From Candidatus Scalindua sp. (GTDB lineage: Bacteria > Planctomycetota > Brocadiia > Brocadiales > Scalinduaceae): a DNA stretch of 50,911 nucleotides. The stretch is taken from the NCBI GenBank assembly GCA_021776915.1, contig JAIQZU010000089.1, positions 1-50,911 on the forward strand, given 5' to 3'. Each line of letters opens with the position of its first letter. Positions within the stretch are counted from its first letter, which is position 1. Shown one piece after another: positions 3,274-46,373 of this stretch. The translations under genes were made by a program, and so were the position numbers. The notes under the pieces were generated by a model, which did not search any database, had not been told where the DNA came from, and saw only the letters and a list, made by a program, of their open reading frames with translations.

Positions 3274-4722
3274 TTAAGAAGAATCTTTCCTCCACCTCAG
3301 ATCTGGTTTTCTGGCGGCTTGCACTTCATCAAGTCTTGAAGCTGGAGTGTTATGAGGTGCTTTTTTTAATATCTCCGGATTGGTTTTGGCTTCTTCCAGT
3401 ATTTTAATTATAGCGTCAGCAAACTCGTCGAGTGTTTCTCTTGTTTCAGTATCCGTTGGCTCAATCATAAGAGCGTCCGCAACAATCAATGGGAAATATA
3501 TTGTTGGTGAGTGAAATCCGTAATCCAGAAGCCTCTTTGCTATATCCAGTGTTGTTATGCCGTTTGCTTTAAGCTTTCTTGTTGACGCTACAAATTCATG
3601 CATACATCTTTCACCGTAAGGTATTTCAATATGACCGGAAAGTTTCTTCCAGAGATAATTAGCGTTTACAAGGGCGCTTTCTGAAATCTTTCCGAGTCCT
3701 TCACTGCCAACTGATACTAAGTAAGCGTATGCTCTTATAAGCACTCCGGTGTTTCCATGAAATGGCTTTACACGCCCGATGGAGTCAGGGCGGTCATCTT
3801 GCCAGTTATACGAATTATCCTTTTTTATGATTCTGGGAGCAGGTAGAAACGGTATAAGTTTCTTTACTACACCCAACGGGCCGGCGCCCGGACCTCCGCC
3901 GCCGTGCGGGGTGGAAAAGGTCTTGTGAAGGTTCAGATGCAAAATGTCGACACCCATATCACCGGGTTTTGCAATTCCCAGCAATGCATTCATATTTGCG
4001 CCATCAAGATATAACAGGGCGCCTGCATCGTGTACAATTTCAGCGATCTTTAATATGTCCTTTTCAAACAACCCGAGGGTGTTAGGGTTGGTAAGCATTA
4101 AGGCGGCAATGTCACTATCCATGTTCCTCTTTAAAGTTTCTATGTCAATAAGACCATGACTATTTGATTTTATCTCTACAATATCGAAACCGCACATTGC
4201 AGCCGAAGCGGGATTTGTACCGTGTGCGGAGTCAGGTATAATTATTTTGTTCCTTCTTTTGCCGTTTTTAACATGGTAAGCGTGAGATATCAGCATTCCG
4301 ACAAACTCACCGTGTGCGCCGGCTGCTGGTTGCAGTGTAAACTCTTCCATGCCGCATATTTCAGTAAGAGTTTTCTCTAATTCGTACAGGATTTGGAGAA
4401 TGCCCTGACACTGTTCCTGACTTTGATATGGATGAAGATTTACGAATCCCTCATACCTGCTGACGTCTTCATTAACCTTCGGGTTATATTTCATTGTACA
4501 CGAGCCGAGCGGATAAAAATTTGTATCGACGCTGAAGTTTAATTGACTTAACCTCGTGAAATGTCTTACAACGTCAATCTCGGCTACTTCAGGTAGTTCA
4601 GCAGGTTTAGACCGCAGATGACGTTCAGGTATTGGCAGGGGCGTATTGCAATACGCCCCTACAGGCAGTGAATATGCCGTGCGTCCCGGTGATGATTTTT
4701 CAAATATCAGTTTTTCAAGCAT
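3274..4722 (-). CDS. gcvPB: Glycine dehydrogenase (decarboxylating) subunit 2
   Basis: This is the PLP-containing half of a split P-protein. With GcvPA it decarboxylates glycine and passes the aminomethyl group to lipoyl-GcvH. The 482-residue length is typical. The PLP-binding lysine is K267 in LHLNLHKTFSTPHGGGGPG. The family sequences SHAHGTNPASAAM-like (around 166-177) and NPNTLGLFE are clear. Residues 21-29 (VGAYCNTPL) are unusual. They are encoded by a 24-bp perfect palindrome (4637-4660) of a dispersed REP-like family, and they lie in the variable segment just after the conserved LIFEKSSPGRTAYSLP start. The insert keeps the frame open. The gene is separated from gcvPA by the transposase element. 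ATG 4722 lacks an obvious Shine-Dalgarno sequence. Confidence 0.96.
   Translation of the reverse strand: MLEKLIFEKSSPGRTAYSLPVGAYCNTPLPIPERHLRSKPAELPEVAEIDVVRHFTRLSQLNFSVDTNFYPLGSCTMKYNPKVNEDVSRYEGFVNLHPYQSQEQCQGILQILYELEKTLTEICGMEEFTLQPAAGAHGEFVGMLISHAYHVKNGKRRNKIIIPDSAHGTNPASAAMCGFDIVEIKSNSHGLIDIETLKRNMDSDIAALMLTNPNTLGLFEKDILKIAEIVHDAGALLYLDGANMNALLGIAKPGDMGVDILHLNLHKTFSTPHGGGGPGAGPLGVVKKLIPFLPAPRIIKKDNSYNWQDDRPDSIGRVKPFHGNTGVLIRAYAYLVSVGSEGLGKISESALVNANYLWKKLSGHIEIPYGERCMHEFVASTRKLKANGITTLDIAKRLLDYGFHSPTIYFPLIVADALMIEPTDTETRETLDEFADAIIKILEEAKTNPEILKKAPHNTPASRLDEVQAARKPDLRWRKDSS
4637..4660. repeat. 24-bp perfect REP-like palindrome inside gcvPB
   Basis: AGGGGCGTATTG is followed directly by its reverse complement. 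The same 24 bp, extended to 28 bp, occurs intergenically at 46346-46373. Here it is translated in frame as part of V-G-A-Y-C-N-T-P-L in GcvPB. Confidence 0.9.
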
Positions 4723-4744: not shown

Positions 4745-4799
4745 GTAGGGGCGAATGGCCATCCCCGGACAAATTACGCCGAGGACTTTTCGCCCTTAC
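4745..4799. repeat. REP-like element, downstream boundary of the transposase module
   Basis: The ends GTAGGGGCGAA and CGCCCTTAC are inverted repeats around the core CCCCGGACAAATTACGCCGA. A close direct-orientation copy is at 5390-5445 on the other side of the transposase. The transposase stop codon (4796-4798) lies inside this repeat. Confidence 0.8.
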
Positions 4800-5361
4800 T
4801 TAAAGATTTCTTCTTCCAGTTTATCACTGCCTTTTCGATCAGGGTTTTCCCTGTCCAATAACCATTTTACTGGATTGCTTATTATATATTCTCTTATTTT
4901 GTTTAATTTTCTTTCGTTACGAATGATATGTTCATAATAATTACGTTGCCATATATTGTAGACATTGGTGTTTTTCCTAAACCATTTAGTGACACCAATT
5001 TTAAATCCACGAATCATTGAACCAATGGTTTTGGATGGCGATCGAAATTGGTTTATTTGTAAGGGCGAATAATTATTCGCCCCTACATTTATATCGTTAA
5101 TGATTATAATGCCATGAATATGATTAGGCATAATAATGAATTCATCTAATGCTACATGCGGGAAATGCTCTGGTATTTCTAACCAACATTTATTTACAAA
5201 TCTCCCAGCATTATTCAATATCATTCTATCTTCTGCAATATGTCCAAACAAAAAATGGTGATTATTCGTACATACTGTTACAAAATACATACCCTGCTGT
5301 GAATAATCATAATCTTTTAGCCGTATGGTTTTCTCTTGTGTACTTTAGCATTGTATTTCAT
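4796..5361 (-). pseudogene. REP-associated tyrosine transposase (RayT / Y1_Tnp), frameshifted near its N-terminus
   Basis: The largest open part, from ATG 5290, encodes 164 residues of a Y1-type HUH transposase. It has the His-hydrophobic-His motif in MPNHIHGII and the catalytic tyrosine region WQRNYYEHIIRNE. Members of this family are linked to REP sequences. Upstream, ATG 5361 opens MKYNAKVHKRK in another frame. The expected continuation TIRLKDYDYSQQG is in the frame of the main part. Together they match the family N-terminus, joined by one missing base in the A-run at 5329-5332. Residues 69-77 of the open part (VGANNYSPL) come from an internal palindrome at 5059-5086. The unit sits between gcvPA and gcvPB, between two REP-like repeats. 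It could still be translated from 5290 if the shift is real, or be intact if it is a sequencing error. Confidence 0.85.
5059..5086. repeat. 28-bp palindrome inside the transposase gene
   Basis: GTAAGGGCGAATAA and its reverse complement are joined, with a single mismatch in the outer arm. It belongs to the same family as 4637-4660 and 46346-46373, and is read in the same phase as the gcvPB copy (GTA-GGG-GCG on the minus strand). Confidence 0.85.
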
Positions 5362-6810: not shown

Positions 6811-7181
6811 AGTTTTTCATAATCCTTGTTTGACAGAAGTTTGGTTAATTCTTGAGGGTCTTCCATTTCAATAATAAAAAACCACCCCTTGCCATAAGGG
6901 GCTTCGTTTACTAATTGTGAATTGGTCTCAAGGTCGCTGTTTGTTTCAATAACCTTACCGGATACAGGTGAATAGATGTCGTATGCAGCCTTAACTGATT
7001 CGACAACAGTACATGCTTCACCGGCTTTAACAACTCTATCTAAAGCAGGTAATTCTACAAATACAACATCACCAAGCTCGCTTTGAGCGTGTGACGTGAT
7101 GCCAATTCTGGCCTTATTATCTGCCTCTTTCTTTGCCCACTCATGGGTTTTTGTATAGAATAAATCTTTTGGAAATTTCAT
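6795..7181 (-). CDS. gcvH: Glycine cleavage system H protein
   Basis: The 128-residue lipoyl carrier protein shuttles the aminomethyl group from the P-protein to the T-protein. The lipoylated lysine is K64 in VVESVKAAYDIYSPVSG. The start at ATG 7181 follows AAGGCGG at good spacing. Its 3' end overlaps gcvPA. A lipoyl transferase gene lies further down the same strand. Confidence 0.97.
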   Translation of the reverse strand: MKFPKDLFYTKTHEWAKKEADNKARIGITSHAQSELGDVVFVELPALDRVVKAGEACTVVESVKAAYDIYSPVSGKVIETNSDLETNSQLVNEAPYGKGWFFIIEMEDPQELTKLLSNKDYEKLCQVK

Positions 7182-7213
7182 TTAGCCGCCTTTCGTTACA
7201 TAAACATGAGTAG

Positions 7214-7261
7214 CCTCTCTTTCGAGAGGATTCCAGAATTGGAATCCTCTCGAAAGAGAGG
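7214..7261. repeat. 48-bp hairpin (22-bp perfect stem) between gcvT and gcvH
   Basis: The 22-bp arms begin CCTCTCTTTCGAGAGG and flank a GAAT loop. The arms are perfectly complementary. A near-identical element is at 41701-41752. There is no U-tract, so it is not a standard intrinsic terminator. On the gcv mRNA it would form a very stable stem between the two coding regions. Confidence 0.9.
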
Positions 7262-7269
7262 ACTTCCTC

Positions 7270-8465: not shown

Positions 8466-9062
8466 ATGAAAGTTATGGAATCAGGGCAGGATGATAAAAT
8501 CAAAAGGATTCTTGTTGCTTGTGTTGTATTAATCGTTATATGCGTAGTGTGCATATTTATCTCCATAAGGTTTGTGGATAAATACAGGGACAAGGCTGCT
8601 GAGACTGCATCATTAAAGCAGAAACTGGTTGATTTTGAACAGGATATTAAAAGGCTGGATATCAAGATTAAAGAGCTGGAAGTCATGCGATATGATCTGA
8701 GTCTGGAGAAAAGGGGAATAACCAAAGATTATTCAACCATTAAAGATAAATATGCTTCCCTTGGAAAGACGATAAAGACATTGGAAAGGGATATCAACAA
8801 TTTACAGAAAGCATTTAAGATGGTTGGAGTGAATGAAACTGAACAGGTAATAGGTGATGAAGATAGCAGTGGAAATAAATCGCAATTGAGAGCGCTGCAA
8901 AGCCGAAATGATGAGTTACTGAGAGAACTGGCCGTTAAGACGAAGGAAAAGATGATACTTAAGATTGCATTAGAGTCACAGGCAAAAAGATTGGGCCTGT
9001 CAGAGCAGTACGATCCCGAACTAAAAGAAATATTAAAGGAGTTTGTGACAAGTTTGCAGTAA
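8466..9062 (+). CDS. Membrane-anchored coiled-coil protein, function unknown
   Basis: The protein has 198 residues. Residues 13-35 form one transmembrane segment, and residues 40-125 and 140-190 are strongly heptad-like, charged helical sequence (for example LKQKLVDFEQDIKRLDIKIKELE). This predicts an inner-membrane anchor with a long coiled coil. I recognise no family. It is divergent from gcvT. Its last codons (FVTSLQ, stop) lie in the 26-bp repeat that is duplicated after the HicAB cassette, so the cassette appears to have inserted at this gene's 3' end without changing the protein. Confidence 0.8.
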   Translation: MKVMESGQDDKIKRILVACVVLIVICVVCIFISIRFVDKYRDKAAETASLKQKLVDFEQDIKRLDIKIKELEVMRYDLSLEKRGITKDYSTIKDKYASLGKTIKTLERDINNLQKAFKMVGVNETEQVIGDEDSSGNKSQLRALQSRNDELLRELAVKTKEKMILKIALESQAKRLGLSEQYDPELKEILKEFVTSLQ

Positions 9063-9066
9063 TAAA
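9041..9066 (+). repeat. 26-bp direct repeat, left copy, at the HicAB cassette edge
   Basis: It begins GTTTGTGACAAGTTTGCAG and ends AATAAA, and is identical to 9704-9729. It contains the last codons and stop of the coiled-coil gene. Confidence 0.9.
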
Positions 9067-9186
9067 TCATTTCAATTTCAACGTGATAAGGTAATAAATA
9101 GTATTGTCATGTACGTAAAAAACAGTCTAATTCACGTGTATAGTAAAAACTCAACTAACATAAACAACTATATGTAAGCATAAAAA

Positions 9187-9393
9187 GTGAGTTATAAAAG
9201 GCTGAAAATTATCAAAGTGTTGAAAGAATATGGGTTTGAATTTCTTAGAGAAGGACAAAATCATACAATTTTGACAAATGGTAATATTAAAATTCCGATA
9301 GGAAGACATAAAGAAATTTCTCCCGGAACCGCTCAAAAAATAGCAAAAGAAATCCGCGTTCCATGGGCAGAATTTATGTCAAAAATCAATTAA
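9187..9393 (+). CDS. hicA: HicA-family mRNA interferase toxin
   Basis: The 68-residue protein has the compact double-stranded-RNA-binding-like fold signature of HicA. It begins YKRLKIIKVLKEYGFEFLREGQNHTIL, with the catalytic histidine at H26, and ends in a conserved AQKIAKEIRVPWAEF region. HicA cleaves mRNA and is neutralised by HicB. The start is GTG 9187, and an in-frame stop at 9181 rules out anything longer. No Shine-Dalgarno sequence is evident, so expression may be weak. The hicB gene follows 12 bases later. The pair lies between 26-bp direct repeats, suggesting recent acquisition. Confidence 0.9.
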   Translation: MSYKRLKIIKVLKEYGFEFLREGQNHTILTNGNIKIPIGRHKEISPGTAQKIAKEIRVPWAEFMSKIN

Positions 9394-9405
9394 AGGAGGC
9401 TCGTC

Positions 9406-9606
9406 ATGCAAATATTTACAATCGAAATAGAGAAGGATGAGAATTTTTACGTAGCAAAATGTAAAGAACATTCAAATTGTTTTACTCAAGGTAAAACTAT
9501 AGAAGAGGCAATTCATAACATTAAAGAGGTTTTAGAGCTTATCCTTGAAGTTAAAAAACCAAAACTAAAAGTCATTTTAAAGGATGAACTCATAAATGCC
9601 ATTTAG
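9406..9606 (+). CDS. hicB: HicB-family antitoxin (short form)
   Basis: This 66-residue protein has the HicB N-terminal partial RNase-H-like fold (FTIEIEKDENFYVAKCKEHSNCFTQGKTIEEAIHNIKEVLELIL). It has no room for the C-terminal ribbon-helix-helix or HTH DNA-binding domain of long HicB proteins, so it probably neutralises HicA without being a full autorepressor. A strong ribosome binding site (AAAGGAGG, eight bases before ATG 9406) contrasts with the poor one of hicA. That is consistent with an excess of antitoxin. Confidence 0.88.
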   Translation: MQIFTIEIEKDENFYVAKCKEHSNCFTQGKTIEEAIHNIKEVLELILEVKKPKLKVILKDELINAI

Positions 9607-9919
9607 AGAAACATAGTCTTTTTCGTAACTATTCAGCAAAAAAAATATAAAAAAGTTTAAATTTTTCTTGACAGTGTTTTTGGTTAGAAATTGTGATTTT
9701 GTTGTTTGTGACAAGTTTGCAGTAATAAAAGATTTTCTTATTTGCCGTAATTAGCATTTCAGAGAAATAAAATGTATATTGATTAGCGTTAGAAGTTAGT
9801 ATACTATAGGGCTAATTATAATATTTCAAGTGCATGGAAGGCACGAATTGTTTGGCAGGGTTTACGTGTTAACGTAATAAATAATTTTCAAACATTTTTT
9901 TCTAAAGGAGGCATTTTAA
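9607..9919. other. Intergenic region between hicB and the cytochrome gene
   Basis: The cassette's right repeat is at 9704-9729. A TTGACA at 9668-9673 has no convincing -10 partner. Closer to the cytochrome gene, TATACT at 9800-9805 and TATAAT at 9827-9832 could be -10 elements, but no strong -35 is placed correctly for either. Otherwise the region is AT-rich and featureless. Confidence 0.4.
9704..9729 (+). repeat. 26-bp direct repeat, right copy
   Basis: Identical to 9041-9066. The 637 bp between the two copies contain hicA and hicB and no transposase. Confidence 0.9.
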
Positions 9920-10462
9920 ATGAAGAAAATTAGTCAAGCATGTATAGTTGCGCTTTGTGCGTTCGTTGTAACCACCGGAGTAATCACGTACGGTTGGAAC
10001 GGTAGTAAGGCGCTTGCAAAAGAGACTGGAACTCAGCATATAAGTAAATCTACACCTACCCGCTCTCTGATGCGATTAATAAGTACACATACATCTAAGA
10101 TACTGGATGCAATAATGGTTGGTGATTTCAAGGCAGTTGCGAGAGAGGCCAATGCGGTTGCTGAAAACAGTGAAATCGTTATGGAGATGTTCTTCTCAGC
10201 AGACGGAAAGTCAGGGGAGTGGAATAAAGAAGCTGGCGGCGATTCAAAAGCTACCGCGGAAATGAAGGCTGAATTTGAAAAGTACCTGAAAATTACTATT
10301 GATTCCTCAAGGAATATTGCTGAAACTGCCGGAAAGAAGGATATTGTGGAAACCTATAAAAGCTTAGACGAAATGTTGCAAAAGGCATGTTTTGCCTGCC
10401 ATGCGGTTTCTAGAAATCCATGGCCGGACTGGCCGGACTGGATGAAGGCAGCTGGGGGTTAA
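9920..10462 (+). CDS. Secreted monohaem cytochrome c (cytochrome c'-like)
   Basis: The 180-residue protein starts with a Sec-type signal peptide (MKKISQACIVALCAFVVTT, then a tyrosine/glycine stretch and a likely cleavage near ALA-K). It has a single C-terminal haem-binding motif CFACH at residues 157-161. The helical body with haem attachment near the C-terminus resembles cytochrome c' or cytochrome c556-like four-helix bundles, which are electron carriers or NO/CO-binding proteins of the periplasm or, in anammox cells, the anammoxosome. A strong site TAAAGGAGGCA precedes ATG 9920. A hairpin follows the gene at 10468-10511, so it is probably monocistronic. Confidence 0.85.
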   Translation: MKKISQACIVALCAFVVTTGVITYGWNGSKALAKETGTQHISKSTPTRSLMRLISTHTSKILDAIMVGDFKAVAREANAVAENSEIVMEMFFSADGKSGEWNKEAGGDSKATAEMKAEFEKYLKITIDSSRNIAETAGKKDIVETYKSLDEMLQKACFACHAVSRNPWPDWPDWMKAAGG

Positions 10463-10467
10463 TTAAT

Positions 10468-10518
10468 ATGAGCTATTGTGTGCGCTGGAAAAGGCGCATG
10501 CAGTAGCTCATTATTTTA
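10468..10518 (+). terminator. Probable transcription terminator of the cytochrome gene
   Basis: An imperfect stem has ATGAGCTA pairing with TAGCTCAT and TGCGC with GCGCA around the loop TGGAAAAG. It is followed by the T-rich TATTTT and lies five bases after the stop codon. Confidence 0.65.
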
Positions 10519-10673
10519 AATGAGTCCCGCTGGTATCTTCAAACGGTTTTGGTTGTATCTTGAAATATCTCTTCATCTCCATTATGCCGCAGACATTATC
10601 CTCCTTCGGCATTAATTCTCTCAAATGTTACGATCCTTTTTCCTTTATAATCCCCACCAGATGTATAACAGTG

Positions 10674-11483
10674 TCAATGCAACTTAAAGAATCTGAAAGG
10701 TAACGTCAGGCATAAGATTGCAAAGAGCGTTGCTACTATGCAGGGTGATATTGGCAGATCGAAGTAATACGAAAGATAAAATCCTGTTAATGCAGATATT
10801 ATGCCGACCGTTACAGCTATAATAAAGACATTCTTCATCCTGTTTGCGATGAGTAATCCATTTGCTGCGGGGATAATTAAAAAGGTCGTAATAAGCAGAT
10901 TGCCGGATGTTCTCATGCCTATGGATATGGCAGCGCCAATCGTTAGATAAAGCATAAGCTCCCAGAATCTTGCGTTGATACCGGATGTCCTTGCCATCTC
11001 AAAGTCAAGAGTGACTGCAGCAAACTCTTTGTAAAAGAGGAAATGTGCAATAAATACACACGCTATAATTCCGATCATAATATATATCTGGAATGGAGTT
11101 GCAGCCAGAATATTCCCATAAAGAAGATCATCAATTTCATGTATTCCTTTGGCACTCTTTGAAACTAAAAGAATTGAGGCTGCGCTTGAGACTACAAAAG
11201 CAATACCTATCATGCATTCATTTGACAGTCTCCTTTCTGTGAATCTGATAGAAAAGATGGCAACTCCAAGAAAGGTAAATAATAGTGAGATAAGTGTAGG
11301 GTTCAGGCCGGCTATAAAGGCTATTGCTATACCTGCTGACGAGATCTGTGTAACCGCTACGCTGACAAAAACAATCCTTTTGAGCACGATATAAACGCTC
11401 AGGAATGAACATACCAGCGCCATGAGCACCAGGCATGCTATAGAGTATTTAAAGAATTCCAGATTTATAAGAAAGTCAGTCAT
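10674..11483 (-). CDS. Metal ABC transporter permease (ZnuB/MntB family)
   Basis: The 269-residue integral membrane protein has about eight hydrophobic helices. Its family sequence includes LKRIVFVSVAVTQISSAGIAIAF near the N-terminus and TSGNLLITTFLIIPAAN in the second half, typical of ABC-3 permeases for Zn2+ or Mn2+. It forms the channel for the adjacent ATPase (overlapping by eight bases) and binding protein. The specific metal cannot be decided from the sequence alone. Confidence 0.93.
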   Translation of the reverse strand: MTDFLINLEFFKYSIACLVLMALVCSFLSVYIVLKRIVFVSVAVTQISSAGIAIAFIAGLNPTLISLLFTFLGVAIFSIRFTERRLSNECMIGIAFVVSSAASILLVSKSAKGIHEIDDLLYGNILAATPFQIYIMIGIIACVFIAHFLFYKEFAAVTLDFEMARTSGINARFWELMLYLTIGAAISIGMRTSGNLLITTFLIIPAANGLLIANRMKNVFIIAVTVGIISALTGFYLSYYFDLPISPCIVATLFAILCLTLPFRFFKLH

Positions 11484-41601: not shown

Positions 41602-41700
41602 AGTTGATTGTCTTCAAAAAGCTGAGCTTAGCTACTTGAAAACGGGGTACACATCAAGCAGTATTATAATTTAGCTATCATTAGTTATATAACGGTGACA

Positions 41701-41752
41701 GGCCTCTCTTTCGAGAGGATTCCAGTTCTGGAAACCTCTCGAAAGAGAGGCC
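41701..41752. repeat. 52-bp hairpin after acsE
   Basis: The 25-bp arms begin GGCCTCTCTTTCGAGAGG, carry one mismatch and flank a two-base loop. It is nearly identical to 7214-7261. It lies 18 bp after the acsE stop, where it could end or stabilise the acs mRNA. Confidence 0.9.
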
Positions 41753-41769
41753 TGCTTGACCAGGTTGGT

Positions 41770-46345: not shown

Positions 46346-46373
46346 GTAGGGGCGTATTGCAATACGCCCCTAC
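46346..46373. repeat. 28-bp perfect REP-like palindrome between acsC and the corrinoid activator
   Basis: GTAGGGGCGTATTG is followed directly by its exact reverse complement. It shares its central 24 bp with the copy in gcvPB at 4637-4660. Confidence 0.92.

Follow-up and report, generated by a model that had tools for sequence, protein, structure and literature searches.

How a toxin-antitoxin module without a recombinase came to lie behind an intact gene, followed by a second copy of that gene's last bases, is the question raised by this locus of the marine anammox bacterium Candidatus Scalindua. The spread of chromosomal toxin-antitoxin modules that lack a recombinase of their own is an old open question. 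The window analyzed here is a stretch of 50,911 nucleotides from a binned assembly of 3.79 Mb in 89 contigs, metagenome-derived to judge by its relatives. Candidatus Scalindua arabica is a relative within the genus, which identifies this as an anammox genome. The cassette and its borders comprise the following features.

8466 to 9062, plus strand: intact gene for a coiled-coil membrane protein of 198 aa, without a Pfam family above cutoff and with orthologues in relatives
9041 to 9066, plus strand: repeat copy 1, made up of the final 22 coding bases of this gene (stop included) and the next four bases
9093 to 9186, plus strand: region upstream of hicAB, partly common to the hicAB loci of the relatives G008 and G014
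9187 to 9393, plus strand: hicA, putative toxin gene, 68 aa (PF07927)
9406 to 9606, plus strand: hicB, putative antitoxin gene in its short form, 66 aa, with family scores below cutoff
9704 to 9729, plus strand: repeat copy 2, interpreted as the coiled-coil gene's 3' end after displacement

The coordinates and the sequence of the exact 26-bp direct repeat (GTTTGTGACAAGTTTGCAGTAATAAA) that ends the coiled-coil gene and returns after hicA-hicB were confirmed, with the starts of the two copies 663 bp apart. The repeat lengthens to 32 bp if two mismatches are allowed. No other exact direct repeat in the window is as long, and the maximum in 40 Markov-simulated windows was 17 bp. Its 25-mer core has no third site in the 3.79-Mb genome with up to three mismatches allowed, and a search of viral contigs with the 26-mer returned no match. 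The cassette holds no recombinase ORF between the two copies, as originally predicted. Further short repeats around the locus (D2 to D7) are likely due to chance and were set aside.

The identity of the module was examined using Pfam. For hicA, the match to HicA_toxin (PF07927) reached 37.8 bits against a cutoff of 27 (E = 2e-9). The hicB product scored 23.0 against UPF0150 (cutoff 27.3) and 22.2 against HicB_lk_antitox (cutoff 27), both under the curated cutoffs, and its position adjoining hicA together with its conservation fits a HicB antitoxin. The pair shares with the HicAB type II toxin-antitoxin family the HicA domain, the hicA-hicB order and DNA similarity to the order's other hicAB units; it differs in the short form of hicB, which scores slightly under the family cutoffs. 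Similarity to the related units in G001, G008, and G014 ends at 9600 to 9607 and, in the case of G008, begins at 9093. The 26-mer is absent from the related hicAB units elsewhere. Direct repeats enclose 3 of the 19 related hicAB or hicB loci, each time with an unrelated sequence, and at least those in G026 are a dispersed repeat, pieces of which recur nearby. Enclosure is therefore not inherent to HicAB, and its reading as a property of these modules was rejected. Several relatives (L129, L140, L080, and L090) have retained hicB with hicA truncated or lost.

Five related genomes (G001, G011, G005, G002, and G003) have the coiled-coil gene followed by a short intergenic stretch, a convergent epimerase gene and then an operon for a zinc-type ABC transporter, and hicAB is absent at this site in all five. 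Since the relatives have the gene without hicAB, the original prediction that the module was acquired at the 3' end of a gene that was spared holds. It had attributed the acquisition to target duplication or to an att-like exchange, and this part was not borne out by the sequences that adjoin the two copies.

9067 to 9092, no strand: flank 1, similar to the sequence that natively follows the gene in G011 and G001; aligned in register, it agrees with G011 at 20 of 24 positions
9625 to about 9711, plus strand: truncated left-end remnant of the IS66 family with the terminal sequence GTAACTATTCAGC; in G008 the same terminus lies upstream of DDE_Tnp_IS66 transposases
9704 to 9711, no strand: 8-bp microhomology GTTTGTGA, common to the IS66 end (G008:C72) and the gene 3' end, at which the join is placed by inference
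9730 to 9743, no strand: flank 2, similar to the sequence that natively follows the gene in G005; with the count begun at 9726, it agrees with G005 at 16 of 18 positions

Flank 1 is matched in its agreement with G011 by 1 of 65,187 AT-rich 24-mers, and flank 2 in its agreement with G005 by 3 of 56,326 AT-rich 18-mers, in control sets that include the test sequences themselves. Two native-type flanks that differ in type thus follow the two copies, and therefore both copies look like genuine gene 3' ends. Target duplication would give a native flank after copy 2 only, and an att-like exchange would likewise leave a single native flank.

Two features go beyond what had been predicted: an IS66-type end remnant precedes copy 2, and the acquired DNA extends past it. 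Where the closest relative of the IS66 end (G008:C72) reads GTTGTTTGTGAAACGTT, the window reads GTTGTTTGTGACAAGTT. Copy 2 opens with eight bases that fit the IS end and the gene end equally, which points to a join at an 8-bp microhomology, as judged against one IS66 copy from another species. This arrangement is a further indication against target duplication and att-like exchange. An IS66 composite transposon was also considered and rejected, given that the repeat is 26 bp long and begins inside the IS-like sequence; only one truncated left end was found, with neither a second flanking IS nor an 8-bp target duplication. A short palindromic MITE-like element with GTAACTATTCAGC ends on both sides was seen in G036 (L089, about 1414 to 1618).

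The region beyond copy 2 contains three further features.

9744 to 10500, no strand: second insert, which carries a cytochrome c' gene, is bounded by TTATTT and splits the junction between resident flank and epimerase gene
9920 to 10462, plus strand: cytochrome c'-like gene, 180 aa, with a Cytochrom_C_2 score slightly under cutoff
10507 to 10688, minus strand: remnant of the epimerase gene, which in relatives comes directly after the coiled-coil gene and of which most is deleted here

With the cytochrome c' insert and the epimerase remnant, the acquired DNA reaches past copy 2 and has a mosaic structure. The cytochrome c' gene of the relatives sits on other contigs with varying neighbors, and a search with the segment upstream of this gene (9726 to 9910) gave no relative. 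Once the cytochrome insert is removed, copy 2 and flank 2 are collinear with the epimerase remnant, as in G005. The eroded epimerase gene persists as two short pieces, and the gene is intact in relatives.

We consider it probable that the 26-bp repeat is a displacement scar, produced by one homologous and one illegitimate join. The donor segment would have come from a sibling lineage and comprised the terminal part of the coiled-coil gene with the flank that followed it there, hicAB and the IS66 fragment. Homologous recombination, inside the coiled-coil gene or upstream of it, would have brought the segment in, and its other end would have been joined illegitimately to the 3' end of the resident gene at the 8-bp microhomology. 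The coiled-coil gene would in this way be kept whole, and the last 26 bases of the resident allele would be shifted downstream together with their native flank. A single event could account for the window locus, the DNA may have entered by, for example, transformation, and selection may have favored the toxin-antitoxin cargo, because losing the module would kill the cell. What speaks against displacement at the window is that the copies agree over 26 bp although their flanks differ, which is odd for two alleles. No genome was found with an allele of the donor type, in which flank 1 and hicAB follow the gene.

Other cassettes bounded by copies of gene 3' ends were searched for and found in this genome. 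The scan for low-copy direct repeats covered 1.68 Mb, or 44% of the genome, and flagged 13 loci with a repeat at a gene 3' end. Eight were retained, the window included, and five were dropped after their contents had been seen: the repeat starts past the stop in L187 and L207, L233 consists of tandem paralogues, and L250 and L198 have no real gene end. At L198 (G000:C18, 10405 to 11343), a HigB-HTH module has the 3' end of its own antitoxin gene copied (99%) ahead of it. The retained loci are listed with their contents as determined by Pfam; the names recG, dinG, leuS, holB, ubiD-like, and nifS were read from the sequences and not from Pfam.

Window: HicAB between the copies
dinG-like helicase gene (C22): Phd/YefM and ParE
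recG, two fragments (C36): HigB, HTH, and MazE-like, then DUF2442
leuS (C34): PIN, Phd/YefM, and an addiction-module component
holB (C27): VapBC and ParD/ParE
ubiD-like gene, two fragments (C14): HicA with a partner, and DUF4258
Gene of 360 aa (C77): ParE-like
nifS (C14): AAA_14-DUF4143 ATPase, not a recognized toxin-antitoxin system

Toxin-antitoxin genes occur in seven of the eight retained loci and in 1 of 20 random regions downstream of genes that served as a by-eye control (hypergeometric p = 5e-5); the loci were selected post hoc, so this value is only a guide. The gene-end copies at the other loci are about 70 to 350 bp long, and their sequences differ between loci. Copies of 5' ends were seen too, for example with an addiction-module/ParE pair on C33.

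The way in which the copies differ was then compared with what is expected of duplicated DNA. Between gene end and distal fragment, the seven genes outside the window have 29, 17, and 79 differences at first, second, and third codon positions, respectively (pooled p = 9e-12, or 2e-6 once the largest recG fragment is left out), and the aligned coding part of the seven pairs contains no indels. An excess at third positions is not what drift of a noncoding duplicate would leave, so the copies at the tested genes diverged in working genes, as coding alleles, and came to lie downstream only afterwards. The two copies in the window are identical, so this test is uninformative there.

The host genes recG and dinG are mosaic. 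recG goes from clade-B-like at the 5' end (G004, 90%) to clade-A-like at the 3' end (about 86%), a mosaic in which the native part is not distinguishable from the incoming part. dinG shares 91 to 92% identity with G001/G011 over 1.6 kb and then 81 to 82% near its 3' end. For leuS, identity falls from about 89% to 83 to 84% in the last 120 bases, and the distal leuS fragment stands at 88 to 89%. The coiled-coil gene of the window has no clear mosaic breakpoint. At the dinG site and for hicAB, the toxin-antitoxin modules are more alike between genomes than their host genes: the Phd/ParE pair at dinG and its counterpart in G004 share 87% identity, with dinG itself at 73%, and hicAB is 88% identical to the unit that G008 has at another locus, versus 70% for the coiled-coil gene of G008.

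The same arrangement was found in relatives, which were searched using the joined C-terminal pieces. Fragments lie downstream of the whole gene for recG in G003 and G002 (two each), for dinG in G004 and G001, and for nifS in G008. leuS is a weaker case, with a short piece in G002 only and an interval without toxin-antitoxin-like genes. Most of the relatives' intervals contain toxin-antitoxin-like genes (MazE-like with a PIN-like partner, an HTH antitoxin, Phd/ParE, and probable DUF433/DUF5615 pairs), named by sequence similarity and not by Pfam. In G002 (L312, G002:C98, reverse strand), a recG 3' fragment and a truncated mazE-like antitoxin gene form an in-frame fusion. Both parents of this junction are known, so the illegitimate junction is resolved to the base level, and it has almost no shared bases. 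In G005, recG directly adjoins the gene that is next to the first recG fragment in G003, which gives the site without the cassette.

Insertion with long target duplication has been described for restriction-modification genes (Nobusato et al. 2000, as cited in PMC1643837 and PMC3031569). There, a selfish module without a dedicated recombinase lies between direct repeats of variable length and is recognized by comparing genomes. A target-duplicating insertion of this type, with the copies diverging afterwards, would give a picture that is alike overall, with addiction modules as cargo between variable-length direct repeats (PMC1643837, PMC3031569), and the relatives do have a module-free site. 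We nevertheless regard it as unlikely. The repeats do not behave as duplicates of one target, to judge by codon positions at the seven other genes, where differences fall chiefly at third positions without indels, and by the native-type yet different flanks at the window; the host genes, moreover, are mosaic. Compared with the restriction-modification examples, the cases presented here differ in having toxin-antitoxin cargo, in lying mostly at gene 3' ends and in having tested repeats that differ like alleles and not like drifted duplicates.

An intrachromosomal duplication that involves no foreign allele is somewhat harder still to support. In this case, replication would slip from the IS66 end to the gene end at GTTTGTGA, copy 26 bp and jump again. 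The 8-bp microhomology at the left join and the identity of the two copies agree with such slippage, but the second jump that it requires is unexplained, flank 2 is similar to what natively follows the gene in G005 and is collinear into the epimerase remnant, and the coding-type divergence at the other loci is left unaccounted for.

If a small element with an att core of 26 bp had integrated site-specifically, by an integrase acting in trans or by an Xer/dif-like system, the insertion would have restored the gene 3' end and left an exact repeat, as seen at the window. This reading is improbable in view of the missing recombinase between the copies and of a core without dyad symmetry (57% at best). 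Furthermore, the repeat is unique in the genome and is lacking at related hicAB loci, flank 1 is gene-flank sequence, and the copies at other loci have different sequences and lengths. The dif modules of Acinetobacter plasmids are similar in being small, often toxin-antitoxin modules between short repeated sites (PMC13141974, PMC6449649); their sites are Xer sites, whereas the 26-mer lies at the end of a coding gene and has no such symmetry. An assembly chimera of two metagenome strains, for which the binned assembly and the two allele-like flanks could be invoked, is very improbable, as the join before copy 2 has 8 shared bases, below usual assembly overlaps, and the pattern occurs at many loci and also in relatives assembled separately.

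Displacement by one homologous and one illegitimate join has a counterpart in homology-facilitated illegitimate recombination, of which we know no demonstration in anammox bacteria. This type of recombination is known in competent bacteria, with a usual microhomology of 3 to 10 bp (PMC3240628). It combines one homologous with one illegitimate junction, as is proposed here, and the 8 bp of the window lie within its range; it differs in that a deletion of similar size is typical, whereas here a short resident gene end is retained and gives rise to the repeat (PMC3240628). A model close to displacement has also been proposed for orphan immunity gene arrays (PMC5361080). In these T6SS arrays and in orphan Rhs 3' ends, an incoming module finds its anchor in homology upstream and pushes the resident 3' part downstream, and the arrays build up, which may be compared with the stacked recG and ubiD-like fragments described above. 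There, the displaced part is the effector gene's own, whereas the anchors here are core genes such as recG, dinG, and leuS and the cargo is toxin-antitoxin (PMC5361080). The toxin-antitoxin content, the recurrence and the evidence for repeats as displaced alleles are new here.

These results suggest that imprecise recombination at gene ends, and not an integration machinery of their own, carries toxin-antitoxin pairs from one lineage to another. More tentatively, the 3' ends of Scalindua core genes may serve as landing sites for modules that travel between lineages as units of gene tail plus module, each arrival displacing the resident tail, with stacked fragments recording successive arrivals. 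The displaced gene tails would then be readable scars, in which length gives the breakpoint and sequence gives the displaced lineage. If general, such tails would make it possible to count arrivals in any genome and to put them in order. They would then also link the movement of toxin-antitoxin modules with the mobility that has been proposed for restriction-modification genes.

Other repeated elements were observed in passing. Two long near-palindromic hairpins (CCTCTCTTTCGAGAGG...) at 7180 to 7264 and 41669 to 41753 are 80% alike, and the first adjoins gcvT, where alignments with relatives break. Palindromic repeats (AGGGGCGTATTGCAATACGCCCCTAC) occur at 4637 to 4662, 5061 to 5086, and 46348 to 46373, one copy being a variant; near them, the ORF at 4796 to 5290 has the look of a REP-associated transposase and no Pfam match. 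A CRISPR-like array with 32-bp repeats (GTTTCAATCCACGCCCCCGCACGGGGGGCGAC) occupies positions 1 to 1150 of L240 (G000:C60).
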